Positions 9,633 to 55,802 of a stretch of DNA of 64,000 bases are shown piece by piece. The stretch is from Stomorhina lunata (lineage: Eukaryota; Arthropoda; Insecta; Diptera; Rhiniidae), in assembly GCA_933228675.1 (NCBI GenBank), contig OW121740.1, positions 50,856,174-50,920,173 of the forward strand, in the 5' to 3' direction. Position numbers and translations under genes: made by a program. The notes below the pieces were generated by a model that was given only the letters and a program-made list of their open reading frames with translations, did not search any database and was not told the origin of the DNA. Position 1 is the stretch's first letter. Every line of letters starts with the position of its first letter.

Positions 9633-12600
9633 TTACGACTGAGGATGCATAAGCGTATGTGAAATATCCATAGTAACATCAGTCAGGCCATTAACAGCCA
9701 TTCCATTAACCATATTACCAGCTAAAATCAAACAGAAACAACAAAACAATAAAGAAATTGATTGGTTTACAAAAGCTCAAGAAAGAAATAGGATGAGAGA
9801 TTGAGAAAACTATTTAGTAAAATTAAAACTATGCTCACTTGTACGCTGGCCTTGGGTATCTAATTGAGACCAGTACTGTTCGGAAGGGCTTTGGGAACAA
9901 GTGCCGGGAGGAGCTTGTACGGGGGCACCAGTATAGCGGAAATAGGGATTTTTCAAATCTAAGGTATTGCTAGAGGAAATTAAAGTGCCTTCAATGTGTA
10001 GATCGATGGTGACATCATAAGACTGGCGTCTATTAGCTTCAAGCAAAACACGTCCGGTCATGGTTTGTCCCTGCTTAATAAAGATGGGCATGGGCAGCAG
10101 ACAGCGTACTTGATACCAATGAGTCAAGGGTGCCGTAGGAGAGGTAGACAGCCATACATGTTGTATAGAGCCGCAGAATTCCACATCAAACCAAAAAGCC
10201 AGACCATGGCAAATGCCAGTTTGCAAAATTTGGAATTCCAAGGGAATATCTAAAAATATATTTGTTTTTAGAAAACATTTTTCGGCTTTCCTTTATCTCG
10301 CCATCAAACTTACCTATATTATGTAAATCATTTTCATTATCCCTAAGAAAATCACAAACATGCCGTACCGACTTGGCCATACAAATTCTTATATCAAATG
10401 TATCCACTATGGGTTGACGGAAATACTCTTTCATACCCTCTTTATGCAAAGTGGTTAGATCGACCCCATGAAATGCTGATTGATACCAAAAATTGGCCTT
10501 GTTATATTGTTCCGAATAGAGGGCTTCATCGGAAAACGGTGCTACATGTAAATCACCGTGTGTCGGAAACATTTTACCATTTGGTTTAAGCCATTTGCGA
10601 GCATGTAGATAAGTTTCCAACATACGTTCGTTGTATAACATATAGCCCATGGGCTCTGAGATAATAACATCTACATGTTCGGGTAAATCAATTTCTTCGA
10701 TTTTCCCCGGCATAACAAAGATTTTATCCTGAACATGATTGGATTCTACCAATTGTTGGGCATATTGAGCCATATTCGAGGCTTCAATGGCATAAACTTT
10801 GGCGGCTCCCGCCTGTACTGCAAAGAAGGAGAGTATACCAGAACCGGCACCCACATCCAAAACAACTTTGTTCTAAAAATATAAAACAATTTCTTTTAAA
10901 GTTTAATTAATATTAATAAAGAAAAGATGAACCTACATGAAAATCCATAGAATTTCCTAAGATGGCGCGTTGATAGGTACTTGTCCTGACATAGTCTTGC
11001 ATCATATTTTGTTGTTGTGACAAATAGCCATAGAACTGGAAATATTGTGAAGCCGAAGACTCTTCAGTTCTTTGTGAGAATACCGATTTGGGACGTAGTC
11101 GCTTGACATGATCAATCAGTTTGCGAAATCTTTGTTGTTCTTAAAAATAATTGAAAATTAAAAAAATATATTTCTTTGTATCCATTTCCTTAAACAAATC
11201 CAAACTTAATTTATGTCAAGTTACGTTTAAAATTTATTTGTAGAAACAATTTTTTAAATTTATTTTACTTTAATTATTTATTTATGAATTCTCAATTTAT
11301 TTAATTTTGTTTTGAATTTGTTTGTTAGAATAGGGTCTTTTTAAAATTTTACCTTTTTCCGTAGGAAAACGTAACAAAAAATTCTCATTACCAAATGATA
11401 TGGCAAATGTTTGCCTTCCCACCTGTGCCGCATCAGTATCTGATGTTACCAAATAATCTTTAAGTACATTCGTGGGCGAGGATTCTGAAAAAAAATTAAA
11501 ATTTCCAATACATTAAAATTTTTAGAAAATATATATAACTTTAGGATGTAATTTTACACAATAAAACCGTGTAGTTGTTGTTGTAACTATGATATTATTG
11601 TTTATATCGTACTGGCAGTCCTTGGTCGGAATCCTAAGATTTCCGAGTTGTTCCGGCAAGAAGAACCGATTGCCGTGGGAACGACACTAAAACCATCAAA
11701 TATTCTAGTTTAGCTCTTTAACATTTTTATAATAAAAAAAGTTATAAATCATCATTTCATTTGTTTTTCTAACAAATTAGGTGCCACAGATGGACTTTGA
11801 ATACGAGCAAAACTTTTTCTTGAAGACATAAAAGTATGTAGTATCTTAATGAAAAGGCCTACCAAATTTATTGCAAATTGTAAATAAAGACCTTCCAACT
11901 TGATCGTTTCTCGACTTGGTCTTTGTATCCCTTTCGCCCTATAGAATTCGAACCTTCATCCTCATGGACTTTAAAGTAACGACGACTGTGAAACGTTTAA
12001 GAGGAAGAGTTGTTTATACACCTCCTTTGTTATTGCCCCTCATAGACCTTAGGGATTATTATCTGGGATACTCTTTTGTGCACGATTTCTCCGACCTTTC
12101 GAACATTAACGTTCGAAAAATAAAGCATCTGGATGGCTCCTACCGTTAGGTAAACCATTGCTCGCAAAGAAATCTTTCTTTTTAATACAAATTTGTCTTC
12201 TATCGAATGTCCAATACGTTGTGTCGTTTAATGCAGAAATTTAATAAGTTTTTTCCGAAAAGCAACAGAAATCGTTCTAACAAAAACATCATTTCATAGA
12301 TTTCAAATTTGAATGATAAGGTATAGATAACAAGTTCTACAATAAGAATTGAAATATTCCCGCTGGGTACTTTCGTGAATGTAATGGATGTATGTATATT
12401 AGTGTATGTGTTTCTTTCTTTCCTACTTACCCAATGCAATTTTGACCAGAACACCTTGCGAATCATAACTGCACAATAGCGTTGAAATGCCCTTGTATTT
12501 AGGGCTAAATTCCAATTTAGATTCATCTGATATTTCACTAATTAAAACACTATTAAATGTGCAAGTACCACTAGCACTTAGGCCTGAACTATTGATAATG

Positions 12601-14302: not shown

Positions 14303-17300
14303 TTACTCCAGGCTATCAGTGAGAGGCTGATCAAGCCATCCTGAAGCCCTGATAAATGAGTCTATTTTACGAATGTCAATACTCGCTAGATCCGATAAAT
14401 CATGCAGAAAAGGTGCCCCCAAATTGAGAGCCCTAGGGGTCGAGAGGGCGGGGCAGTGACAGAGAAGATGTGTCACTGTCTCTTCCTCTTCTATGTTGTG
14501 ACAGCTGCGGCAGTAGTCGTAAAATTGAAGATTAAGTCTTCTGGCATGAAGCCCAAAAACGCAGTGCCCTGTTAGGGTCGAGATAAGATTGCGAAGTCTA
14601 TGACGGGGTAGAGTTACCAAGATATTTGAACGTTTAGTGTTGTAGGTGGGCCATGTTTGCCTAGATATGGAGCAGTTCGTTACCGAAGACCACTCATTTT
14701 GCGCTGACGCATAAAGTGATTGCCTTATAATTGATTTGCAGGCGGATAGCGGTAAGCCCGTAAATTGGTCGATGCTATCCTGACTCAGGAGAGCACCGGA
14801 TTTAGCAAGTTTGTCCGCGGTGGAGTTACCAGGTATGTTGTTGTGCCCGGGTACCCATAAGAGTTCGATTTTGCAATGTCTCGCCATCTCGTTAAGAGAT
14901 GTCCGGCATTCGCTGGTAAGAACAGATGTCGTATGGACATTAGATAGGGATTTTATTGCAGCCTGACTGTCGATACAAAAGCGAATATCCCTGTCGTATA
15001 CTCTGTGGTATCTCAACCATTTGACTGCTTTGTGGATAGCCGATATCTCGGATTGTAGGACACTGCATTGATCAGGGAGCCTAAAGCAGATTTCCTTCCC
15101 AAGCAATGGGATGAAGAAGCCCCCCCCAACGCCTATCTTTGACTTCGATCCATCAGTGTAAACCTCTAGACAGCCATCATCTAAGGATGGAGGCTCTCCA
15201 GAGATAGTCACAGCGAAGGATTTGTCGAAGAAAGGAGTAGATATGCAGTAGTCTATATGTTCAGGGATGTTATTGATTTTGCCCAGGATGGTGGAATGCC
15301 CGATTTGTAAGTGGGACCAGGTTCCAATTGTGCTGAGACGGACAGCCGAGTTAAGAGCAATTTGCATTGCCATTAGTTCAGCTGGGAGCCAGTTTAGCAT
15401 GGTGAAGAGTGCCTTAGATGGAGTAGTTCTTAAAGCACCGGTGATCATTAGAGCAGCAGATCTCAAGATTTTGTTAAAATAGTGCAACTGGTTTGCCTTG
15501 GTGAGTGCAGGCCACCAGACCAGCGCACCATACATTAAAATAGGCTTAACCACCATGTTGAAGAGCCAGGCAGTGTTAATGGGATTCAGACCCCAGGTTT
15601 TGCCAATGGCCCCTCTACATGAATATAGTGCAATAGATGCTTTAGACACCCTAAGTTGGGTGTTCAGGCTCCAGGACAGTTTTGAGTCCAAAATGACCCC
15701 CAGGTATTTGGCATGGTCAGTGAGCGAAAGTTCAACCTTGTTTAATTTAGGAAGAGTAAAGGTGGGAATTTTGTATTTACGTGAGAAGAGTACAAGTTCC
15801 GTTTTAGCTGGATTTACTCCAAGGCCGTTGGAAACGCTCCATCGATAGAGTAGGTCAAGAGCTGTTTCGAGACGTTGTGACAGTGTGTTAAGAAATTTCC
15901 CTGACACTGCTATAGCAACATCATCCGCGTATGCGATGGTGTTGAATCTCAGAGAATCCAGTTCAGTGAGTAGTTTATTTATGGCAAGGTTCCACAGAAG
16001 AGGTGATAGTACACCTCCTTGTGGAGTACCTCGACAGGCTACTTTATAAACAGTAGTAGTGCCCATGGTTGAGCAGATGACTCTATAGGTGAGGAGTTTA
16101 TCTACAAACGAGATAATAGATTTGTCAACCCTTAAGTCCTCCATTGCCGATAAAATCGACTCAGGTCTAATGTTGTTAAAGGCGCCCTCTATATCTAGGA
16201 AGGCGGCAAGTGTGAATTCGCCAAACTCAAGAGATTTTTCAATATGGCTAACTAATGAGTGGAGTGCTGTCTCAACTGATTTGCCTTTGTTGTAGGCATG
16301 TTGTGAGTTGGACAGGAGCCTCGAATCTAATGAAGCACGAATATGTGCTTCAATGATACGCTCCAAAGTTTTAAGAAGGAAAGAACTAAGGCTAATAGGC
16401 CTGAAATCCTTAGGTTTCGTGTGCGAGGTTTTACCTGCTTTAGGAATAAAGACAACGTTGCACCTGGTCCAGGATTCTGGTATGTGAGACAGTCTAAGAC
16501 AGCCATCATATAGCAGGAGAAGCCAGGGCATTAAGAGATCGGTATTATGTTGAAGATCAGCTGGAATAATACCATCAGGACCCGCAGCTTTGTACGGTTC
16601 AAAGCTATCAAGAGCCCATTGAATTCTATCCCTAGTAAGAGGGATGGGGGTGGACTCGAGAATATAGTCGTTAGCGAATGTGTCCGCACCTAGTGGTTTG
16701 CAACCTGGAAAGTGGGTGTCTAAAAGGACCTCGAGGGTTTCGGATCCGCTTGTCGTCCAATGGCCACTGTCCCTTTGAATATAGGCAGCTACCGTGGGCG
16801 ATGAGGTCAGGATTTTTCGGAGACGACTAGTATCAGAGGAACCTTCGATGCCGCTGCAAAAGTTCATCCAGGACTGTCTCTTCGCTTTCCTGACTAGATT
16901 TTTGAATTTATTAACGCAGGCTTTATAGGGGAGCCAGTTTGCGGTCCTTTTGGCCTCGTTAAAAAGTCGGCGACATTCCTTTCTAAGTGATGCAATGTCG
17001 GTAGACCACCAGGGAGGTTTCTTTTTGCCTCTCCTGGTGGTGAGTTTACATGCCTGGTTTGTGGCTTGGTTTAGGGCGTCGGTTAGTGCATTAACCGCGT
17101 GATCTAAATCATTGCGAGTGTTGATGCTCGGTAAGGAGGGGAGGAGTCGCTCCAGGGTGCCCCTGTGGGTATCCCAGTTTGTCTTCCTCCTGTTACGGTA
17201 AGGAGTAGTTATTACCCGTTGTTGAGTTAATTCAAATTCGATGTAGCGGTGATCCGAAAAAGAGCAGTCGTTTGAGACCCTCCAATTCTTGATCAGAGCT

Positions 17301-17932
17301 GAGTGCATGTTACTAACTATCGTGATGTCGAGGACCTCTTGTCTGTTAGCAACGACAAAAGTGGGTTCTGACCCGGAGTTAACTATCTCTAAGTTGTTAC
17401 AAAGAATAAAATCAAAAATTGACTCACCTCTTGTGTTTGTGTCGGAGCTTCCCCAAATGACGTGATGTGCATTAGCGTCAGCTCCAATGATTAATGGCAG
17501 GTTTTGCCTGTGTGCACGGTCCACCGTCTTTCGAACCAGAGCATTGGGTGGGGGGCTGGGTTGGTCGTGCCCCATGTAGCACGAGGAGACCATAATGGAG
17601 CCTGTCTTGGTCTCCCAGGCCGCTACGGTGGTATCTTCATCACTGTAGTCAGAAAGAATGAAGATATTAAGTGTGCTTTTCGCTAAAATACACGCCCTGG
17701 GCCTACCTGTTCCCTTGGTGTAAATTAGCTTATAGCCTTTGAGCGATAATCCACAGATCCTTTCACGGTTGATCCAGGGCTCTTGAATTAACGCTAGATC
17801 GTCCCCACGTTCGGCCAAGCGGAGGAGCAGGGCAGCAGATGCCGCCTTGGAATGATGAAGATTAACTTGCGTTATCTTCATCATCATCATTCTCGGAGAA
17901 GGTGAGTGGAATGATCGTGACGTCGGAGTCAT
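14303..17932 (-). CDS. LINE ORF2 polyprotein: endonuclease, reverse transcriptase, RNase H
   Basis: Drives target-primed reverse transcription. Numbered from the upstream ATG (1,209 residues): apurinic-type endonuclease about 19-240 (LIQEPW at 48-53, GADANAH at 150-156, SDH at 226-228); reverse transcriptase about 480-760 (FRPISL, AFLDIEGAFNNI, GTPQGGVLSPLL, catalytic YADD at 668-671); RNase H about 920-1045 (YTDGSK, SEISAIHKA, CIDSQAA, WVPGHNNIPGNSTAD); and a C-terminal Cys-rich motif, CRSCHNIEEEETVTHLLCHC, at 1141-1160. All key acidic residues are present. The real start is more likely one of four consecutive ATGs at residues 15-18, directly before KITQVNLHHSKAA, because endonuclease homology begins there. 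The reading frame is unbroken. Confidence 0.93.
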   Translation of the reverse strand: MTPTSRSFHSPSPRMMMMKITQVNLHHSKAASAALLLRLAERGDDLALIQEPWINRERICGLSLKGYKLIYTKGTGRPRACILAKSTLNIFILSDYSDEDTTVAAWETKTGSIMVSSCYMGHDQPSPPPNALVRKTVDRAHRQNLPLIIGADANAHHVIWGSSDTNTRGESIFDFILCNNLEIVNSGSEPTFVVANRQEVLDITIVSNMHSALIKNWRVSNDCSFSDHRYIEFELTQQRVITTPYRNRRKTNWDTHRGTLERLLPSLPSINTRNDLDHAVNALTDALNQATNQACKLTTRRGKKKPPWWSTDIASLRKECRRLFNEAKRTANWLPYKACVNKFKNLVRKAKRQSWMNFCSGIEGSSDTSRLRKILTSSPTVAAYIQRDSGHWTTSGSETLEVLLDTHFPGCKPLGADTFANDYILESTPIPLTRDRIQWALDSFEPYKAAGPDGIIPADLQHNTDLLMPWLLLLYDGCLRLSHIPESWTRCNVVFIPKAGKTSHTKPKDFRPISLSSFLLKTLERIIEAHIRASLDSRLLSNSQHAYNKGKSVETALHSLVSHIEKSLEFGEFTLAAFLDIEGAFNNIRPESILSAMEDLRVDKSIISFVDKLLTYRVICSTMGTTTVYKVACRGTPQGGVLSPLLWNLAINKLLTELDSLRFNTIAYADDVAIAVSGKFLNTLSQRLETALDLLYRWSVSNGLGVNPAKTELVLFSRKYKIPTFTLPKLNKVELSLTDHAKYLGVILDSKLSWSLNTQLRVSKASIALYSCRGAIGKTWGLNPINTAWLFNMVVKPILMYGALVWWPALTKANQLHYFNKILRSAALMITGALRTTPSKALFTMLNWLPAELMAMQIALNSAVRLSTIGTWSHLQIGHSTILGKINNIPEHIDYCISTPFFDKSFAVTISGEPPSLDDGCLEVYTDGSKSKIGVGGGFFIPLLGKEICFRLPDQCSVLQSEISAIHKAVKWLRYHRVYDRDIRFCIDSQAAIKSLSNVHTTSVLTSECRTSLNEMARHCKIELLWVPGHNNIPGNSTADKLAKSGALLSQDSIDQFTGLPLSACKSIIRQSLYASAQNEWSSVTNCSISRQTWPTYNTKRSNILVTLPRHRLRNLISTLTGHCVFGLHARRLNLQFYDYCRSCHNIEEEETVTHLLCHCPALSTPRALNLGAPFLHDLSDLASIDIRKIDSFIRASGWLDQPLTDSLE

Positions 17933-18944
17933 CCTGATCCCCGTCCTCAGGGTCGGGGTTCAGGAGGGCTTCCTCGTCAGCATCCATGTCCATCACATCT
18001 TCGGCAGCGCTGAGAGAGTTTATGCTCTCCAGAGATTGCCTAAGTTGCGATGAGCCGGAAGCTTCATTCCTAGCGGGGGGATCAGATGAGCTGTTAGCCT
18101 TCCCACTTGAAACCTTATCATCACCTCGGTAAACATGCAGGGAGATCTCCTCGAAACCGTAGAAGATCTTCCCGCGCATCTCCCGAAGCGGAGCTAGGGT
18201 TTCCTGTGTAAGGATAACAGTTATCCTTCTGAGAGCTCCTTCAGGTTCAGAGATCTTAGCTACCTTCCATTCCTGGACGGGTAGGCTAGGATTGCTGATC
18301 TGAAGGAGCTCCAGTATCTCCTTGGCAGAGGACTTGCCATCGGGCACAAGGGCTGTGGACCTAGGTCTGCGAGGTATCTCCTCCCTGGAGACCACGTCAA
18401 GCCTAGCTCCATCCCAGATGCCCTCTATGAGCTGAACTGCTTTCTTTAGCAGAATAGCAGAGCGCTCATTATGACAAGCCATCAGTTTGACACGTCCTTG
18501 ATACCAACCAGCGTCGCTGCAGTTTGGTGGGGGGCCAGGATTGTCCTTTAGGACATTAATGACAACTCCCACTAACTTAACACGGATTATTTCCCACCTT
18601 TCGGGGGAAATAGCTCCGTCAGCGTCGCTACGGTCAATGACAGCCTTGACGAGGTGGCCTTTGGCAACCTCGCTAAAGGATCTGTCCATTAACCTGGTGG
18701 GTTTAGGACGTTTAGTGTCAGGCTGCTGGCTATGTGGACTAGAGTCTTCCTCCGAGCGTTGCCGTTTAGGCGCGTCCGAGGACGTGGAGGGAGTCTTGTC
18801 CAGAGATTCAGCCAGCGTCTTAATAGCCCATTCCTTGGATGCTTTCTCCTCAGGAGTAAGGGTGTCTTCAGGCTTGTCTCCAAGCGACTGAAGTTTCCTT
18901 GTAGCGGCACGCCGCTGAAGGAAAGCCCTTCTGGCCGGAAACAT
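17862..18944 (-). CDS. LINE ORF1 protein (gag-like, 360 aa)
   Basis: First ORF of the LINE, expected to bind element RNA in a ribonucleoprotein particle. It begins MFPARRAFLQRR. A basic/acidic N-terminal third (HSQQPDTKRPKPTRLMDRSF) is followed by a compact central domain of about 170 residues with the phrase SDAGWYQGRVKLMACHNERS, and it ends in a strongly acidic tail (DPEDGDQDDSDVTII...ENDDDEDNAS). No CCHC zinc knuckles are visible, unlike many I and jockey ORF1 proteins. The central region resembles the domain of unknown function found in LOA-type ORF1s; that link is from memory. The ATG lies at the very edge of the element. The 3' end overlaps ORF2. Confidence 0.85.
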   Translation of the reverse strand: MFPARRAFLQRRAATRKLQSLGDKPEDTLTPEEKASKEWAIKTLAESLDKTPSTSSDAPKRQRSEEDSSPHSQQPDTKRPKPTRLMDRSFSEVAKGHLVKAVIDRSDADGAISPERWEIIRVKLVGVVINVLKDNPGPPPNCSDAGWYQGRVKLMACHNERSAILLKKAVQLIEGIWDGARLDVVSREEIPRRPRSTALVPDGKSSAKEILELLQISNPSLPVQEWKVAKISEPEGALRRITVILTQETLAPLREMRGKIFYGFEEISLHVYRGDDKVSSGKANSSSDPPARNEASGSSQLRQSLESINSLSAAEDVMDMDADEEALLNPDPEDGDQDDSDVTIIPLTFSENDDDEDNAS

Positions 18945-18947
18945 TTT

Positions 18948-19310
18948 ATATTAAAAATTCTTCTTAACAAAATATCTTATTAAAAAGGGGGTTTACAAAT
19001 CATATATTAAAAACTTTTCTTTACAAAAACTGTATATGAAAAATTTTTCTATTAAAAAAATTGTATACGAAAAATTCTTCTTTACAAAAAAATGTATTAT
19101 TAAAAAAAATTTTAAATGGAAAATTTCACTACAGAAATAACTAAAAAATTTTCTATAAAAATAAATTGAATTGAAAGTTTTTTGGTAGAAACAATTTTAA
19201 ATTGAAAATTTTTCTACAGAAACAATTTTAAATGGAAAATTTTCCTAAAAATTTTTTTTCTGTTTGAAAATTTTTCTGTAAAAAAATATTTATAAAAATT
19301 TTATTTTGTG
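18948..19310. repeat. Satellite-like AT repeats flanking the LINE (right)
   Basis: Degenerate units such as TATTAAAAATTCTTCTT, GAAAATTTTTCTA and TACAAAAAATTGTAT, matching the style of the tract at 13990-14190. Probably the displaced other half of one AT-rich tandem tract. Confidence 0.55.
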
Positions 19311-20938: not shown

Positions 20939-21453
20939 CCTTTAGGCGTTCTTCGTTCTTGCTCGACTTCTATTTTTTCTTTCTGATCTAGATTTTCTTT
21001 CAATGCTCAGGTTTTCCTTAAACCTTTTGAATCAAAGAGTCAACCTATATAACTTTTGATATTTTTTTTAAAGTCTATAATAGATTTTTTTAAAAAGATT
21101 TACTTATAAACATTTTTATTATGACCTCATTTTACGCGAAGCTTAAATTAAAAATTGTATAGGACAAATCTATAAAAGCTAATGCTTAAAAAATATTAAT
21201 TTAAATACGGAATGCATGTTACATTCGGAACACTCTTTATATGAAAACATAAAGAAGGTAACATAGTTACTGTTACTGTAACTGTTAATTAACATACATA
21301 TGTAAATTGCAGACAGTGCACACTACAATGATTAATCAGTTCCTTTAATATAATACGAGTACATAAAATATATTTTTATAACGACATTTTACTTTTGTTC
21401 GTCCGTAAACTTAACAGTTTTAATTAAATTTAAAATTGTTTCTTCAATTTTAG
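20939..21453. other. Intron of the Glut4EF-like gene, right part
   Basis: AT-rich sequence ending in the splice acceptor CAATTTTAG directly before the exon at 21454. No upstream exon was recognised in it. Confidence 0.5.
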
Positions 21454-22856
21454 CTCTAAAAAAGTTCGCCGCACTGCCGCTGATCACTTGGATAGCGACA
21501 GTGATTGCAATGAAGAGGACTTCTATTATACAGAAGTCGAAGATGATGAAGATGACTGCAAAACTCCTAGTCCAACATCACCACCTACACTAAGCCACCG
21601 CGATATGGCACGTCCGCCCCACGAAGATCCTGAATACCAAAGACAACTAGTTGGGAATTTCAAGTAGGTTTTTTTTTCGAGAATCAAACAAATTCTTAAA
21701 CATTTTAAACTTATTATGTAAAAATTTTATTATTATTATTATGTTTTCTTTAAATAGACAAGGACGTGCGGCCGCCCAATTGCAACAAATAAATGGCAAA
21801 AATAAAAGCAACAACAATCATAATCTTCCACACACTATTTATGTGGGCAGCCAGCCACAACAACAGTTGCTGCAATTACAAAATAATAATAACAACATCA
21901 GCTGTATACCAACATCGCCATTAGCTCATCATAATTATACATGGCCGTCGGCCAAAGCCACCACAGTGATTACCACATCTGTAACAAGCACCTCAAATAA
22001 TCACAATCAGCAAGTAAATGCCTCTAGTAATTATCAAAGTTATCCACAACAGCAGCAGCAACAAAGTAATCATCAGCAACCACAGCAACAGTCAACGACA
22101 ACAACATTCATAAAACATGCTCGGGCCTCACCACGTCCGTCCCAGTCCACAGCGCCATATCCTTCACCAACATACGTCCATCAACATCACAATTACAGTA
22201 GTCCGGCTCCACCGCCACAACCACCACAAAGTCCCACTAACAACAACAGCAATTCGTTAGCAACTGCTAATTCAAACACAGCAATTGTACATCATAATAA
22301 CAGCAGTGCCAATAGTGTGCTACAACAGTTGTCGCAACAAAATGTTACAGTGACAACAACAACACATCATAGTAACAGTCAACATCACCACACACAACAA
22401 CAGCAGCAGCAACTGCAACAGCAGGCCACAGTTACCATAATACCAAATTATGCACACCCACGAGCCGTTGGACATCATCAGGAAACGCACTCGACGCATC
22501 ATCAACAACAGCAGTTGCATCCACATCATCCACAGCAGCAGCAACAACAACAACAACAGCATCATCGCTTACAACAATCGCCAACAGCCGCCACTGCCAG
22601 CCATAGAATGGTAGCCTCAAATCCAAACTCCAATACAAACACAAATAATACCGCTATCCAGACGACGGCGACAACAGCCAATGTTCATCAACAACATGTT
22701 GCTGTGCAACATGCCAACAAGCAAACACCCAATTCGCCGAATCGTCGTACGCGGGGTGAAAATAAGAAGTGTCGCAAAGTTTATGGCATGGATCGCCGGG
22801 AAATGTGGTGCACTCAATGCAGGTGGAAAAAGGCCTGCAGTCGTTTTGGTGACTGA
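21454..22856 (+). CDS. Glut4EF: Glut4EF-like C-clamp DNA-binding protein, last two exons (partial)
   Basis: 3' part of the fly member of the SLC2A4RG/ZNF395/ZNF704 family of nuclear DNA-binding regulators. Exon 21454-21663 follows a TTTTAG acceptor and encodes [20 protein letters not shown] then EDFYYTEV, the acidic block that follows the C2H2 finger in this family. A 94-bp GT-AG intron joins it in phase to 21758-22856. The second exon is Gln/Asn/His/Thr/Pro-rich and ends with the C-clamp: [17 protein letters not shown], then [11 protein letters not shown] and UGA. Four Cys residues of the zinc-binding clamp are present. Ending just after the clamp is, from memory, where vertebrate relatives end too. 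The C2H2 finger and start codon are not in these exons and I could not find them upstream. The same frame stays open beyond the UGA (next entry). Confidence 0.9.
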
Positions 22857-23915
22857 AAAAGGCCCAAATCGTCGAAAATGGCAGCGGCGACGACAACAAC
22901 GACGACGATGACAATGACGGCGATGACAACAACAACAACAACAACAACAAATACAAAGACGAGTGCGAGTACGACAATAATGACTGAAAATAATGTTATG
23001 CTGCCAACGTTGCTACAAACGTCGGCAACAAACATGCAACCCTCAAACACAGCAACTACAACAAATGCAGCAGCAATAACAACAACAACACCTTTATTAT
23101 ATAACAATAGTAGTAGCAACAACAACAACAATACTAGTGGTATTACAAATAGCAACTGTCAGAATATGGTAACTTTAACGCCGACGACAACATTTGAAAA
23201 TGTCGCAACAACAACAACAAAGACTTCTATAAAACGTCATGCCAACAGTAGCAACAACAATAATAATAACAATAAGATGTTGCCCAGCAAACAATCAAAA
23301 CATTTTTTAACCACAAACGTGCACACTTTACCCACCACCAACAACAACAACATTAACAACTCAAACTATAGCAGCAACAATATTAACAACAACACCAGCT
23401 CTACCACCGCATGTTGCAACAACAACAACAATAATAATACAAACGCTTGCTGTCATACAGCCAATAATAATTTAGGTGTTGTTAATGCTACTGCCAAAAT
23501 GAGTGGTGCTGTTGCAACATCGGTTATTGTTAAACCACCAACTAATTTAAGTAAAACTAACAATAAACATCAGCAACATTTGAAACAGCAACAACAACAA
23601 CAACTTTTGGCCAATACAATGACAGTGATAACAACACAACAATTAGCTAAAATAGAAGACGAACAACAACAACAGCATTGTCAGCAACAGTCTCAAACAA
23701 CTATTACCACAACCACCAACAGCAACGCTACAAAGCAGATTTTATTGAAATCTCCTAACTCTAGTAATCCTTTTTCTGCTCCTTCTCCTGCCCATCATGT
23801 TCTAAATGACTTAAGTGACATAAGTGGCAATGTAACAACAACTAAATTAGCAGCAACAACAACATCATCATCATCACAACAACAGCAACAACAAGTGGTA
23901 CTATTACAATGTTAA
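22857..23915 (+). CDS. In-frame 352-codon extension after the Glut4EF UGA (readthrough candidate)
   Basis: After the UGA at 22854-22856 the same frame is open for 352 codons to TAA at 23913-23915. It encodes KRPKSSKMAAATTTT, long Thr/Asn/Gln tracts, then more complex stretches such as ATKQILLKSPNSSNPFSAP and SPAHHVLNDLSDISGN. The other two forward frames are closed repeatedly. Homopolymer tracts use mixed synonymous codons (AAC/AAT for Asn, CAA/CAG for Gln), as expected for protein selected at amino-acid level. Insects are known for many functional readthrough extensions. Alternatives are a stop-poor CAA/AAC-rich 3' UTR, an unspotted splice that removes the stop, or initiation at ATG 22878. 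The base after UGA is A, not the favoured C. No other cue was tested. Confidence 0.55.
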   Translation, partial: KRPKSSKMAAATTTTTTMTMTAMTTTTTTTTNTKTSASTTIMTENNVMLPTLLQTSATNMQPSNTATTTNAAAITTTTPLLYNNSSSNNNNNTSGITNSNCQNMVTLTPTTTFENVATTTTKTSIKRHANSSNNNNNNNKMLPSKQSKHFLTTNVHTLPTTNNNNINNSNYSSNNINNNTSSTTACCNNNNNNNTNACCHTANNNLGVVNATAKMSGAVATSVIVKPPTNLSKTNNKHQQHLKQQQQQQLLANTMTVITTQQLAKIEDEQQQQHCQQQSQTTITTTTNSNATKQILLKSPNSSNPFSAPSPAHHVLNDLSDISGNVTTTKLAATTTSSSSQQQQQQVVLLQC

Positions 23916-24333
23916 ATTTATTTGAACAAAAAATTAATATTTTTTTATTACTTTACAAAAAAAGAAAACTAAGTATTAATTTTTAATTGAGTACAAATTA
24001 GTAAAATCTATTTCTTTGTCCTTTTTAATCTTAAAATATTTAATTTTTTTTATAGTATATTAAACATTAATTAGTAATATCACTTATTTTGTTGAAGCCG
24101 ATATGTAATGAGAAATTTTTATGTACTTAAGACAAAGAAAAATGCTGTTAAACTTCATATTTATGGTTATTTTCCGTAATTAGCAATTTTAAATCACTTA
24201 CCGATACTAAGATTTATTCGCTTTTCTATTCAAGTGGCAACACTTGAAAACACTTTGGCAGCCTTTGCAAAGGTTTTAACTGCCTTATCATCATAAATAG
24301 TGATAACAAATGGGAAACAAATACATTTTGAAA
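23916..24333. other. 3' flank of the Glut4EF-like gene
   Basis: AT-rich sequence likely containing the 3' UTR. No polyadenylation site could be assigned with confidence. Confidence 0.4.
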
Positions 24334-24639
24334 CAGGGATGGTAAACATGGTACAATTGTACTTTTATTGATACACTTTAAAAAATCTGATTGTTACCGT
24401 GGTACTACCGAGTAATAGTTGATAAAATTTTAAAGTTTTTACTATTTAATTATGAAGACTAAAACTAAATTTTAAAGACATTTTTATTGAAATTGGGTTA
24501 AATAAGTTGATTATTTCAGGAACTTACTACGGAACCCCGGAATTGAGATGTGGGCTTGTGACCGCCACAATTTTTTTGAAATTTCCGAGAATTTAAGCAA
24601 TAATAAAGAAAGGGTCGCTGTATCATGTTTTGTATAATT

Positions 24640-25174
24640 CAATTTCTTCGTTAAAAATCATTTTAATATCCCCTGAAAAGCGGTCCATACTTAACCCTAG
24701 CTCTCATACCACAATATACAGCCATGTCCCAGAACTTAATTCCGCTCGAAAGTGGAATGAATTCCGTATACTGATTCTACAGAAAAAGTAAAGCGCATAC
24801 TACTTTCAATGAAACCACTTTCAATTTTAAAAGTGAAATTGAAGTTGTGTATTTTTCATTGTTTATTCAATATTTGAACAATTTTATTAATTAATCAGTG
24901 TTATTTGCAAAAAGATAGAGTTTCCGATTTCAATTTAAAAAATCGTATTTTGAAGTGTTTTTGGACATTTTTCGGAATCTATAGAACCTAAAGCCATTTC
25001 GATTGGAATTTAACTACGGAATGGCTTCAATTCCGAACGGAATTTCTGACATGCCTGATATTTTCCTAGGCGTTACAAAATCTTCTAAATATGTTGACAA
25101 TCGTTTATCGGACCATAGTAGTTTAGGGTGCTATAGAATTGGTAGAGCCCGACTATATTACTTTCTTACTTGTA
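24640..25174 (+). mobile_element. Hairpin-ended repeat, copy C (diverged)
   Basis: Ends GAGCCCGACTATATTACTTT then CTTACTTGT, matching the right end of copy B. Internal phrases such as CATACTTAACCCTAGCTCTC also match. The left end is unclear. It lies inside the 24334-26701 element. Confidence 0.5.
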
Positions 25175-25289
25175 CAGGGCTATCCATTTTGCGGTTTCAA
25201 AAGTGAACGTAAATAAAAAAGATATAAAATATTTTTTTCATGATATTTCTTTTTTATTATAAAGTTTTAACGTTGACATTATGTGTGAA

Positions 25290-26260
25290 ACACTACATCA
25301 TTTAAATGACCACAACGCGAAATGTTGCAGGCATTGATTCTTTTGCGGTATTTCAGCCATAACTTGAGGAATGCTGGTTTTTAAGTGCTCAAGAGTTAAA
25401 GGTTTATATACATAAACATGGTCTTTCGCGTAGTCCCACAAAAAAAGTCTAATGGTGATAAATCGCATGATCTTGGTGTCCAGTTGATATCGCCACGACG
25501 AGAAATTACGTGGCCAGCAAATGTCTCTTGCAATAAAGCCATATTCGCTCGAGTTGTGTGGTTTCTTGTTGAAACCACATAGTCTCCAATCGTATATTTC
25601 AATAGCGAGCAAAAAAAAAAGTCGGTTATCATATGACCATAACCGAATTTACGGTGACAGTCGTTCCATCGTCGTTTTCGAAAAAGTAAGTTCCAATCAC
25701 ACCTTTGGACCAAAGAAAATAATAATAATACAACAAAACATAAAAATAGTTAAAATTTTGCCACCCTAAAATATAAAAAAACGTGAAATTAGAAAAAATA
25801 AAAAAAAAAAACAAAACAGTGACTTTCTTCAATTACTTGAGGATTCTCAGAACCCCAAATACTGCAATTTTATTTATTAACATACCCGCCGAGTGAGAAA
25901 TGTGCTTTATCGCTGAAGAAAATTTTGTTTAAAAAATCGCCGTCCACCGCTGGCTTTAGTTGTTGTGAGAGCTGGACTTATATGGATGCAGGTGTAGATC
26001 TAAATGGAAAATACGCCATAATGTGCCATAAGACAGTCCTAAATCCTGAGAACGATGAGGAACATTCGGGTCTTCGGCAACACTTGCTGCTGTATATGAA
26101 CATCAGCGATATTTTAGAGAAACGATGATCCACAGGCCTTACAATCTTTGTAACCGCTCCAGCCTCTTCAAATTTCTTCACAATTTCGCCTTGCGTAGTT
26201 GGACGATTATCTAAACCATAATCTGCTCTGTGGCTGTATCACATTTTTGTATTATGTTTT
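25290..26260 (-). pseudogene. Broken Tc1/mariner-superfamily transposase
   Basis: On the minus strand, fragments in order: KKFEEAGAVTKIVRPVDHRF (N-terminal), a block ending about 25870 with the equivalent of SDKAHFSLGGYVN, LWSKGVIGTYFFENDDGTTV, then ARANMALLQETFAGHVISRR, GDINWTPRSCDLSPLDFF and LEHLKTSIPQVMAEIPQ. These mark a DDE transposase that cut and pasted DNA. The frame is broken by several shifts and by an AT-rich insertion at about 25712-25830. Non-functional. Confidence 0.8.
25712..25830. repeat. AT-rich insertion in the transposase, duplicated at 27895-27990
   Basis: The phrase GTTAAAATTTTGCCACCCTA, an AATAATAATACAACA lead and an AACGT-AAATTAG trail occur both here and 2.2 kb downstream. 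It interrupts the transposase between the SENPQ and LWSKGVIG segments. Confidence 0.7.
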
Positions 26261-26701
26261 GGTAATTGAAAGGCTTGAGTTCATATTTTGATAATTTTTA
26301 TACGTTGTGTGATACATAAGCGATCCTTTTTCGTCAATGTCAGACTTTCAACTGAAAAGAAAAAAATTGGTTTAACAACTTGTTTGACAGATGTCGAATT
26401 CCAGTCCTGTACTTTTGAAACTACGAAATGGATAACCCGATATATAAAATTCTATAATTTCTGTTCAATTGAAAGATATTAATGCCCATCACTCGAAACC
26501 TATGTTTTACGGAAAATGTTTCTAATATGAATTTGATTATGAACTTCAATTCTTAAATTTTAATCAATTTTTACATCAAAAGGGATCAAAAAAGTTCCAT
26601 TCTTAAGTTTCGAATTTGATACCCGTTAAATATATCATTTTTTGAAGTACATTTCGTTTCCTTGTTTGGTACATAATCAAGAAAGCAATTTTCCATCCCT
26701 G

Positions 26702-28225
26702 TTTGGAAAGCGTAATTTAACTGTTTTATCTCGGAAAGGAGAACGTATGTTAACGGTATTGCCAAATGGTAAAAATATCATTTCCCTTATAAAAAGTAAT
26801 AAAAAAAGAGTTATTTTGGTTTTTTAGCTTAAAATTTAATTTATAACCAAAATTTTGTTTGTTTTATCAAACATATCATTAATTATATGAATTTTTCTTC
26901 ATTTATGCTAAAAATTTTGTTACTAATATTTGAGATTTTATAAACTATTGTTGTTTAATTTTATGCGATTACTATTTTTGTTTAAAAGTTTACGGCTTAT
27001 TTAAATGAGCTTTTTAATTATTGTGTTTTTAGTTGTCTGTGAAAAAAATTTACTTCAATATTTACATCAATGAGTGTTTTTTTATTATTATTATTTATTT
27101 TTATTTTTTTTATATAAATGTTTACATAAATTTTTTTTTGTTTTTTATTTTTAATCAAACGTTTAATTTTGTTTACACCTTATATACATGCATATTTTAT
27201 TATTATTATTATTAAATTTTAATTATTTTTATGAATTTATTTTATAAGATTCTAGACAATTTTTCTTTAGTTTCTAAGTATTATTACAAAAAAAATTAAA
27301 AAAAAAATACAAAAAAAAAACAAAAATATTTTTAATATAAGAAAGAGCATATTCTATAAAAAATGAAATTTAAAAAAATAAAACAAGAGTTATCATTAAA
27401 TAAAAAACAATAGCCCTTAAGCAAAACAACAAAAATATTATGATATAAAAAATAATCCCAACCACACAAATCTTAAGAAATAAAAAAATATTAAAATATA
27501 AAAAAAACTAGAACAATTTTATTATATACATAAAAAGCATATAAATAATTTAAAAACTAAAAGAACAGACATTTAACTAACTTAATGTAATTTTTTTAAA
27601 AAGGATAACAATTAAAATTTAAAAAAGAAGTATTACAAAACCAATAACATTATAAAAAAAAAAAACAAAGAAATAAACTAAAATTAAATAAAATCAATAT
27701 GTTAAAAGCGTAAATATCAAATTTTTAAAAATATTTAAAAATAATTAATTATACAAGAACATAAAAAAATAATCTAAACACTTACATACATACATTATTA
27801 CTATATTATGCTACAAAAAAATAGCAACAAAAAACAAAACATTTATATATCATATAAATATGTATAATTAAATCCCCCTAACACTGGACATAAAATAATA
27901 ATAATAATACAACAACAAAACAAAAAAAAATAGTTAAAATTTTGCCACCCTAAAATGTAAAAAACGTAAAATTAGTAAAAATATAAAAAATCCTTTTTAA
28001 ATATAGAAAAATCATACAAAACAAAATGATAATTGCAACTATTGTACACTGAGAAAAATATTAATTAATACAAAAAACAAAATCAAATTAAAAAAAGAAA
28101 AATTCTGTAAATCTTTAAAAACTAAACAAAAAGCTCTTTAATATTAAACAAAAAAAATTATATAATTTAAAAACAAACATAAACGAAATTATATTTTATA
28201 ATTTTAACTCCAAAAACAAAAACTA
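26702..28225. other. Strand-asymmetric AT-rich tract, no gene
   Basis: T-rich on the plus strand to about 27230, then A-rich to 28200. The segment 27895-27990 is the second copy of the 25712-25830 repeat. No coding frame of interest. Confidence 0.5.
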
Positions 28226-44490: not shown

Positions 44491-44879
44491 CTGGTATTTA
44501 GTACAATCTTTGATAAAGCCTGATATAAACTGATAGTAGTTGTTACCTGCATCAAAAGCAATAAGTTTAGAAAAAAGTTCACCTTGTTGCACTCTGTCAA
44601 GTGCCTAGGAACTATCGAGAACCTCAACTATGCTTTCTCCAAAACAGTGGGTATTGAATGACTTCATTTTTTGGGAATTATTGCGGGTCTCCACTAGAGC
44701 GTCCTCTACGACAGTCACTCGGGCACTTGCTAAATATGGAAAGTTCAGAACAAAAGGAATTTAGTGTTGTTAGCCTCACCCTTTTAAGATATTGGCTTAA
44801 CATTTGCAATAAATTCTCTAATATAAGGTGCAACACTTTGCCTGGTAGTTTAAAACAACTTTTTTGTCTGAATTCTATC

Positions 44880-45300
44880 ATTATAGCTTCAAATTGCTTG
44901 GTAACTTTACCTCTACACAGACTTCGCAACCTTATCTCAACCCTAACAGGTTATTGCGCTTTTGGGCTGCATGCCAGAAGACTTAATCTTCAATTCTATG
45001 ACTACTGTCGTAGTTGTCATAACACAGAAGAGAAGGAGACAGTAACTCATCTTCTTTGCCACTGCCCCGCCCTCTTAACTTCAAGGACTTTCAATCTGGG
45101 GGCACCTTTTCTGCATGATTTGACGGATCTAGCGAGTATTGACATAAATAAGTAAAATAGACTCATTTATCAGGGCTTCAGGATGGCTTGATTAGTCTCT
45201 CACTGATAGTCTGAAATAACTATTTTTGTTCTTTTCTTCCAGTCCGCTTTTAGGACCCAAGTGACTCTGACCTAACATCGGCTGCCTGCCTAATCTAACC
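44880..45300 (+). pseudogene. LOA-like LINE 3' end, truncated copy
   Basis: Plus-strand translation LVTLPLHRLRNLISTLTGYC continues through LNLQFYDYCRSCHNTEEKET to SIDINK and a stop. It is closely similar to residues 1106-1190 of the complete LINE at 14191-18947. It keeps the family 3' end (GACCCAAGTGACTC, GGCTGCCTGCCTAATCTAAC). A 5'-truncated relative, recently derived. Confidence 0.85.
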
Positions 45301-55011: not shown

Positions 55012-55802
55012 GTTAAGCAGGAGGCTGACCATAAAGTCCGCGTCACTTGGGTCCATGACGTAATTCCTACAAGGGAGAAAGAAAAGTAAAATTTCTAGTC
55101 TACCGCATATAAGAGGCTCAGTTAGAGCCAGCCGGATGCACCAATAAAAGAGCCTATTTTACGAATGTTGATGTTCGAGATCTCTAATAGATCGTGCAAA
55201 AATGGGAATCCCAGATGGAGGGTCCTAATATCAGCAAGGGCTGGGCAGTGACAGAGGAGATGAGTGACGGTTTCTTCCACCTCCACGTTGTGACAACTTC
55301 TGCAGTAGTCGTTAAATTGAAAATCAAGTCTTCTAGCATGTAAACTTATTAAAAAGTGTCTTTTGAGTACTGAGATAAGGGTGCGAAGTCTATGGCGCGG
55401 AAAGGTGACCAAGATTGCAGAACTTTTACTGTTGTATGTTGGCCATGTAAGTCTAGAGATCGAACAGGTCGTTTCTGTGGACCAGTTGGTCCGTGCAGAC
55501 TTACAGAGAAACTGCTTAATAAGCAGTTTGCATGCTGATAGCGGCATACCTATGAATTGTTCAATGTTCTTTTTGCCAGATTGCTAGATGTTCCTTTTGC
55601 TAGATTGTCCGCAATGTTATTGCCTGGTCCATTACTGTGACTGCGTGTCGCGGAAAGTTAAATGTTGGAATGTCCCGCCATCTCATTTAGGGATGCCCGA
55701 AATTCACGGATAAGAACGGATGTCGTGTAGACCGATGATAAAGAATGAATGACAGCAAGACTATCCGTACAGAAATGAATATCGTTAAAGTATATTCGGT
55801 GG
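55012..55802 (-). pseudogene. LOA-like LINE, 3' part
   Basis: Minus strand: HRIYFNDIHFCTDSLAVIHS (RNase H), SVYTTSVLIREFRASLNEMA, LPLSACKLLIKQFL-like MPLSACKLLIKQF, FPRHRLRTLISVLKRH, FNDYCRSCHNVEVEETVTHL, and the 3' end GGACCCAAGTGACGCGGAC. Clearly diverged from the complete copy. Continues at 56862 after an insertion. Confidence 0.85.

Follow-up and report, generated by a model that had tools for sequence, protein, structure and literature searches.

Does a fly gene whose product appears to end at a DNA-binding C-clamp also encode a longer protein, through the frame that continues behind its stop codon? We addressed this question for one locus of Stomorhina lunata, located in a window of 64,000 nucleotides (the whole stretch of DNA that was analysed). 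The first-pass annotation had described a Glut4EF-like C-clamp exon closed by a UGA, an open frame of 352 codons behind it, and a possible stop-codon readthrough. The features on which the following analysis is based are collected in Table 1.

Table 1. Positions, in the window, of the exons, the stop codon and the elements of the extension
Feature	Positions	Strand	Basis
Upstream coding exon, Glut4EF ortholog	21454..21663	+	tblastn of Cochliomyia, Haematobia and Musca relatives; acceptor AG ends at 21453, donor GT at 21664
Coding exon including the UGA stop; Gln/His/Asn-rich, then C-clamp	21758..22856	+	tblastn; acceptor AG ends at 21757
C-clamp DNA-binding motif	22761..22853	+	phmmer match to PDB 7dta, SLC2A4 regulator
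Donor-like G/GTGACT, possible rival splice site spanning the two final codons and base 1 of the stop	22848..22854	+	Score 0.84
UGA stop, candidate readthrough site, context GAC UGA AAA	22854..22856	+	Sequence; C-terminal end common to the listed relatives
In-frame extension, 352 codons plus UAA	22857..23915	+	Open frame; masked 3-periodicity; frame-specific homology
Extension segment that aligns with the tail of Musca vetustissima	23145..23912	+	Smith-Waterman, MAFFT
Conserved motif LPSKQSK	23280..23300	+	7/7 identical in Musca vetustissima
Conserved motif GAVATSVIVKP	23505..23537	+	11/11 identical in Musca vetustissima
Conserved C-terminus VLLQC plus stop	23898..23915	+	Last five residues the same in the window and in the Musca vetustissima protein P0003

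The gene and the stop at the end of its C-clamp

Two exons of the gene were recognized on the forward strand of the window, and the second of them showed 61% identity over 399 columns with the Cochliomyia protein P0004 in a tblastn comparison. This exon encodes a C-clamp with its conserved cysteines present, for which phmmer returned PDB 7dta with an E value of 2.8e-14, the last residue being the same in both sequences. A protein search carried out with the clamp yielded 163 proteins of about 395–1256 residues, each representing one 90% cluster; the top-scoring relatives were those of Haematobia, Musca and Cochliomyia, followed by the tephritids. The match to 7dta and these 163 proteins bear out the identity proposed in the first-pass annotation; as judged from this similarity, we are dealing with the fly Glut4EF ortholog, a member of the SLC2A4RG/ZNF395/ZNF704 family. 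No Pfam family was detected in the C-clamp exon or in the extension at E values up to 1. For the fly Glut4EF protein, an AAxxL motif has been described in a repressive domain (PMC9890238).

The C-terminal ends were read for 120 of the 163 matches. Among these listed relatives, 117 end at the end of the clamp, two end one residue later, and a single one, from Musca vetustissima, has a tail. The models that end at the clamp include those of Cochliomyia, Haematobia and Musca autumnalis, and also the listed D. melanogaster protein, which represents 18 sequences. The short form encoded in the window is like other products of the SLC2A4RG/ZNF395/ZNF704/Glut4EF family in having the C-clamp at its C-terminus; here, however, a tail follows that, among the 120 members listed of 163, is otherwise present in the Musca vetustissima model alone. 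We also considered that the UGA could be a sequencing error, and this was ruled out by the fact that 119 of the 120 listed relatives end at the same place or within one residue of it. A long in-frame ORF is thus placed right behind a stop whose position, compared at the protein level, is conserved in the listed relatives.

Other features were observed in the window. Upstream of the Glut4EF exons there is a full-looking non-LTR retrotransposon on the reverse strand (14303–18950) with two long open frames, one with DUF4780 (362 aa) and the other encoding an endonuclease-reverse transcriptase-RNase H protein (1218 aa). Two fragments (44658–45155 on the forward strand and 55122–55583 on the reverse strand) resemble the C-terminal end of ORF2 of a retrotransposon of this type, with HRLR, LHARRL and YCRSCHN in common; they gave no Pfam match, and a guessed shared transposon end sequence had 0 matches. 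At 9810–10872 on the reverse strand there are exons of a gene for a protein arginine methyltransferase, recognized by its methyltransferase domain and PRMT_C, which we take to be probably Art4/CARM1. A sub-threshold Rfam match to TMV_UPD-PK3 at 24220–24254 on the reverse strand (26 bits versus a gathering value of 34, E 0.0025) is probably due to chance.

The open frame behind the UGA

Inspection of the sequence confirmed that the C-clamp exon is closed by a UGA and that the same frame remains open for 352 codons (22857–23912) until a UAA at 23913–23915. The other two forward frames, reported before as repeatedly closed, contain 25 and 34 stops along the extension, and in the 1,061 bases located 3' of the UAA the three frames contain 21, 30 and 25 stops. 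In sequences simulated with Markov models of orders 1 to 3, for which the extension itself served as training sequence, 352 codons were open in 0 of 1,500 runs for each order (0 of 4,500 in total), with a mean of 17–20 stops. The composition of the extension by codon position was periodic even with the period-3 arrays masked (p about 3e-12), and this periodicity was absent in the 1,056 bases 3' of the extension (p 0.56) and in a stretch upstream of the exons (p 0.46). The use of mixed synonymous codons in the Asn and Gln tracts was also verified, with AAC 33 times and AAT 27 times for Asn, and CAA 22 times and CAG 8 times for Gln. The extension contains the peptide stretch SGAVATSVIVKPPTNLSK.

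The residues located right behind the clamp (22857–22877, forward strand) are basic if read, KRPKSSK, and would lengthen the positive charge of the clamp.

The period-3 arrays account for 312 of the 1,056 bases of the extension, and a simple argument from the number of stops drops to 0.01–5e-6, depending on the gap, once adjacent stops are merged into clusters. Trinucleotide repeats are able to mimic the signals of an open frame and of periodicity; therefore, homology was sought.

Homology of the tail in Musca vetustissima

The sole tailed relative among the matches listed is P0003 of Musca vetustissima, a partial model with 215 residues after ...KKACSRF. In NCBI this protein bears the name 'protein split ends-like, partial', yet it is a Glut4EF relative. 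Its tail is collinear with residues 97–352 of the extension, with 80 of the 170 aligned residues identical. The Smith-Waterman score of the extension against this tail was 149, whereas shuffling the residues of the tail 1,000 times gave at most 97, and shuffling the extension by blocks 1,000 times gave at most 123. The similarity was specific for the frame of the UGA, given that the other five frames scored 27–44, values that their stops also depress. A BLAST comparison of the two tails with low complexity filtered gave 26.2 bits and an E value of 6e-4, calculated for that pair alone.

The raw Smith-Waterman score was rejected as a sufficient proof of homology, since the extension gave 116, 122 and 171 with tail-less family members and 144 with the exon of the window itself, in all cases through low-complexity sequence alone; the Musca vetustissima tail scored 82 against the window's own exon. 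Once the two exact motifs were removed, the remaining score was 88, which was reached by 96 of 1,000 shuffles and is thus not above them. In addition, the first 96 residues of the extension showed no significant similarity to Musca. The case for homology, drawn from a single relative, is hence built on the two exact motifs, the order in which they occur, the C-terminus common to both proteins, the block shuffles and the filtered BLAST. Protein-coding conservation of the second ORF was found in this relative, at the protein level, for residues 97–352. Because the P0003 tail is collinear and has LPSKQSK, GAVATSVIVKP and VLLQC in common with the extension, the tail very probably represents protein-coding sequence that calyptrate flies have conserved. 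This agrees with the coding nature that had been attributed to the extension from the sequence alone, and the homology evidence, obtained by comparing the sequences, is new and provides the decisive support.

These comparisons also bear on the idea that the extension goes untranslated today, being either a relic or a 3' UTR with many trinucleotide repeats. The proportion of the extension in period-3 arrays and the scores that tail-less members and the window's own exon reach through low complexity are compatible with it; on the other hand, none of the simulated sequences stayed open, and the two exact motifs and the C-terminus occur in the same order in Musca vetustissima. We consider an untranslated extension highly unlikely. 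A chance ORF was discarded on the basis of the Markov runs and the Musca vetustissima homology.

Further protein searches were also carried out. With the whole extension as query, scoring of the 8,000 candidates that had the most words in common with it gave no match at an E value of 0.001; probably, low-complexity words crowded out the relatives. With a less repetitive part as query, none of 480 candidates of about 165–525 residues was significant at E up to 1. Viral and prokaryote contigs were scanned with the clamp for stray fly DNA, and from 25 and 421 pattern matches, respectively, no relative was confirmed.

Routes that could join the clamp and the tail

A tail that is very probably coding could be reached in different ways. 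One of them is alternative splicing, in which an intron from G/GTGACT (22849; the slash marks the splice boundary) to an acceptor inside the extension would drop the stop and keep the tail in frame, and the unspliced transcript would give the short protein. The P0003 model has a splice-like junction at the homologous codon, and the Ala that follows SRF is the residue expected, judging from the protein, from a phase-1 intron with a donor G/GTGAY in the Gly-Asp-stop codons. Scored with approximate fly matrices, the donor of the window has a value of 0.84 that is reached by 5.2% of the 2,880 GTs of the window and is the best within 22600–22856, and in-phase acceptors are available, including those at 23052, 23070 and 23460; however, the donor scores below that of the gene at 21664 (3.4). 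Moreover, only four in-phase AGs are present between the UGA and LPSKQSK, at 22884 (which would define a 36-base intron), 23052, 23070 and 23073, and the best of them, 23052, scores −1.06, a value reached by 27% of all AGs, versus 1.73 and 3.0 for the acceptors of the gene. The acceptor at 23460 scores 0.95 (10.8% of the AGs are as good), yet its use would remove the conserved LPSKQSK.

The would-be intron is also open and 3-periodic. The 65 codons from the UGA to 23052, the best in-phase acceptor before the conserved motifs, were open in 2–10% of the Markov runs, and they are 3-periodic after masking (p 1.6e-6); the first 116 codons were open in 0.07–0.33% of the runs. Regarding P0003, the model is partial, it begins with LIYFLFYLFQ ahead of EPIELKK, which reads like the end of an intron, and it has an insert, WSLKA, that is absent from all other proteins compared; therefore, its introns may be unsupported. 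Taking these data together, we regard splicing in the window as rather unlikely, yet as the serious competitor of readthrough. A mixed situation seems improbable, in which readthrough of the UGA would join the tail here, whereas in Musca vetustissima an intron would do so from a donor located in the last clamp codons (G/GTGAYTGA); if true, one short sequence would be both a leaky stop and a splice donor, and the long isoform would have survived a change of mechanism.

The tail could also be translated on its own, from another transcript or through reinitiation at the ATG located at 22878 (context GAAAATGG). This ATG has a good context and lies 21 bases 3' of the stop, but reinitiation after an ORF of the length of the clamp ORF would be unusual, and a separately translated tail would share the frame of the clamp by chance in one case out of three. 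Within the length ranges covered, the searches, which low complexity limits, revealed no stand-alone tail protein. Independent translation is thus a very slim prospect. Insertion of selenocysteine at the stop, which is indeed a UGA, has a negligible probability in our view: no SECIS family was among the Rfam matches in 22000–27000 at E up to 1, and three selenoprotein genes are identified for D. melanogaster in PMC4528330.

The weak in-phase acceptors, together with a frame that shows no stop and a 3-periodic composition immediately behind the UGA, favour straight readthrough; the preference is moderate, as coding in the first 96 residues finds no confirmation in a relative. Compared with alternative splicing, readthrough is the most likely joining mechanism according to the sequence, and we consider it reasonably probable that readthrough of the UGA links the clamp to the 352-codon tail. 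The reading put forward in the first-pass annotation is accordingly sustained as to the coding extension and reduced to the most likely option as to readthrough, given that the Musca vetustissima model appears to remove the stop by a junction. A transcript joining the extension without the UGA had been named there as evidence against readthrough; the predicted P0003 model appears to be of this kind, while the acceptors of the window are weak.

The surroundings of the stop were also examined. The base 3' of the UGA is A and not the leakier C, as had been pointed out; the UGA-C context is frequent among fly readthrough genes and is not required. The RNA structure around the UGA is ordinary (z −0.03), and weak stability was found for the 100 bases that follow it (z −1.76, with 9 of 200 shuffles as good). 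One CAGCAGCA 8-mer is present at 23068, which says little in so repetitive a sequence; this motif is described as enriched in Drosophila readthrough regions (PMC5100048).

We infer both the mechanism and its rate as follows: most ribosomes would halt at the UGA right behind the C-clamp and give the short protein, and a minority would decode the UGA as an amino acid and continue for 352 codons. The gene would in this way probably make a second, longer form, whose C-terminal domain, rich in Thr, Asn, Ser and Gln, is probably disordered and would carry a few conserved short motifs. Such a tail might change the recruitment or assembly of the clamp protein; most likely, it would not add a folded domain but would modify the contacts that the DNA-bound factor makes with other proteins.

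Readthrough is frequent in flies, with 328 annotated FlyBase genes in 2015 and UGA as the commonest stop, and the extensions measure between 4 and more than 1000 residues; in many long extensions, low complexity of variable length alternates with conserved stretches (PMC4528330). The gene studied here resembles the FlyBase readthrough genes described in that source in having a UGA and a long low-complexity extension with conserved islands, seen here at the protein level and with splicing as a less probable route. It also resembles vvl/dfr, a fly transcription factor with an unusually long C-terminal extension that is repeat-rich, largely disordered and conserved in Diptera (PMC8417969). In contrast to vvl/dfr, for which the source gives UAG-C, a predicted stem-loop and an experimental demonstration, this gene has UGA-A and no notable structure, and it is known here from its sequence. 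No paper linking Glut4EF with readthrough was found in the literature search, nor any joining readthrough with the C-clamp or 'translational readthrough' with Musca domestica, and Glut4EF is unnamed in the main texts of PMC5100048, PMC3840789, PMC8417969, PMC4999894 and PMC4528330. The supplementary candidate lists and the 2011 Jungreis survey were outside this search, so Glut4EF could be on such a list.

By analogy with these systems, there is a somewhat better than even chance that this gene joins the fly regulators, vvl/dfr among them, whose readthrough tails are long and disordered. With a conserved tail of some 215–352 residues, the other calyptrate models examined would lack a long form of the regulator, and the clamp, which is usually at the very C-terminus (119 of the 120 listed models, two of them ending one residue later), could precede a large, probably disordered domain.
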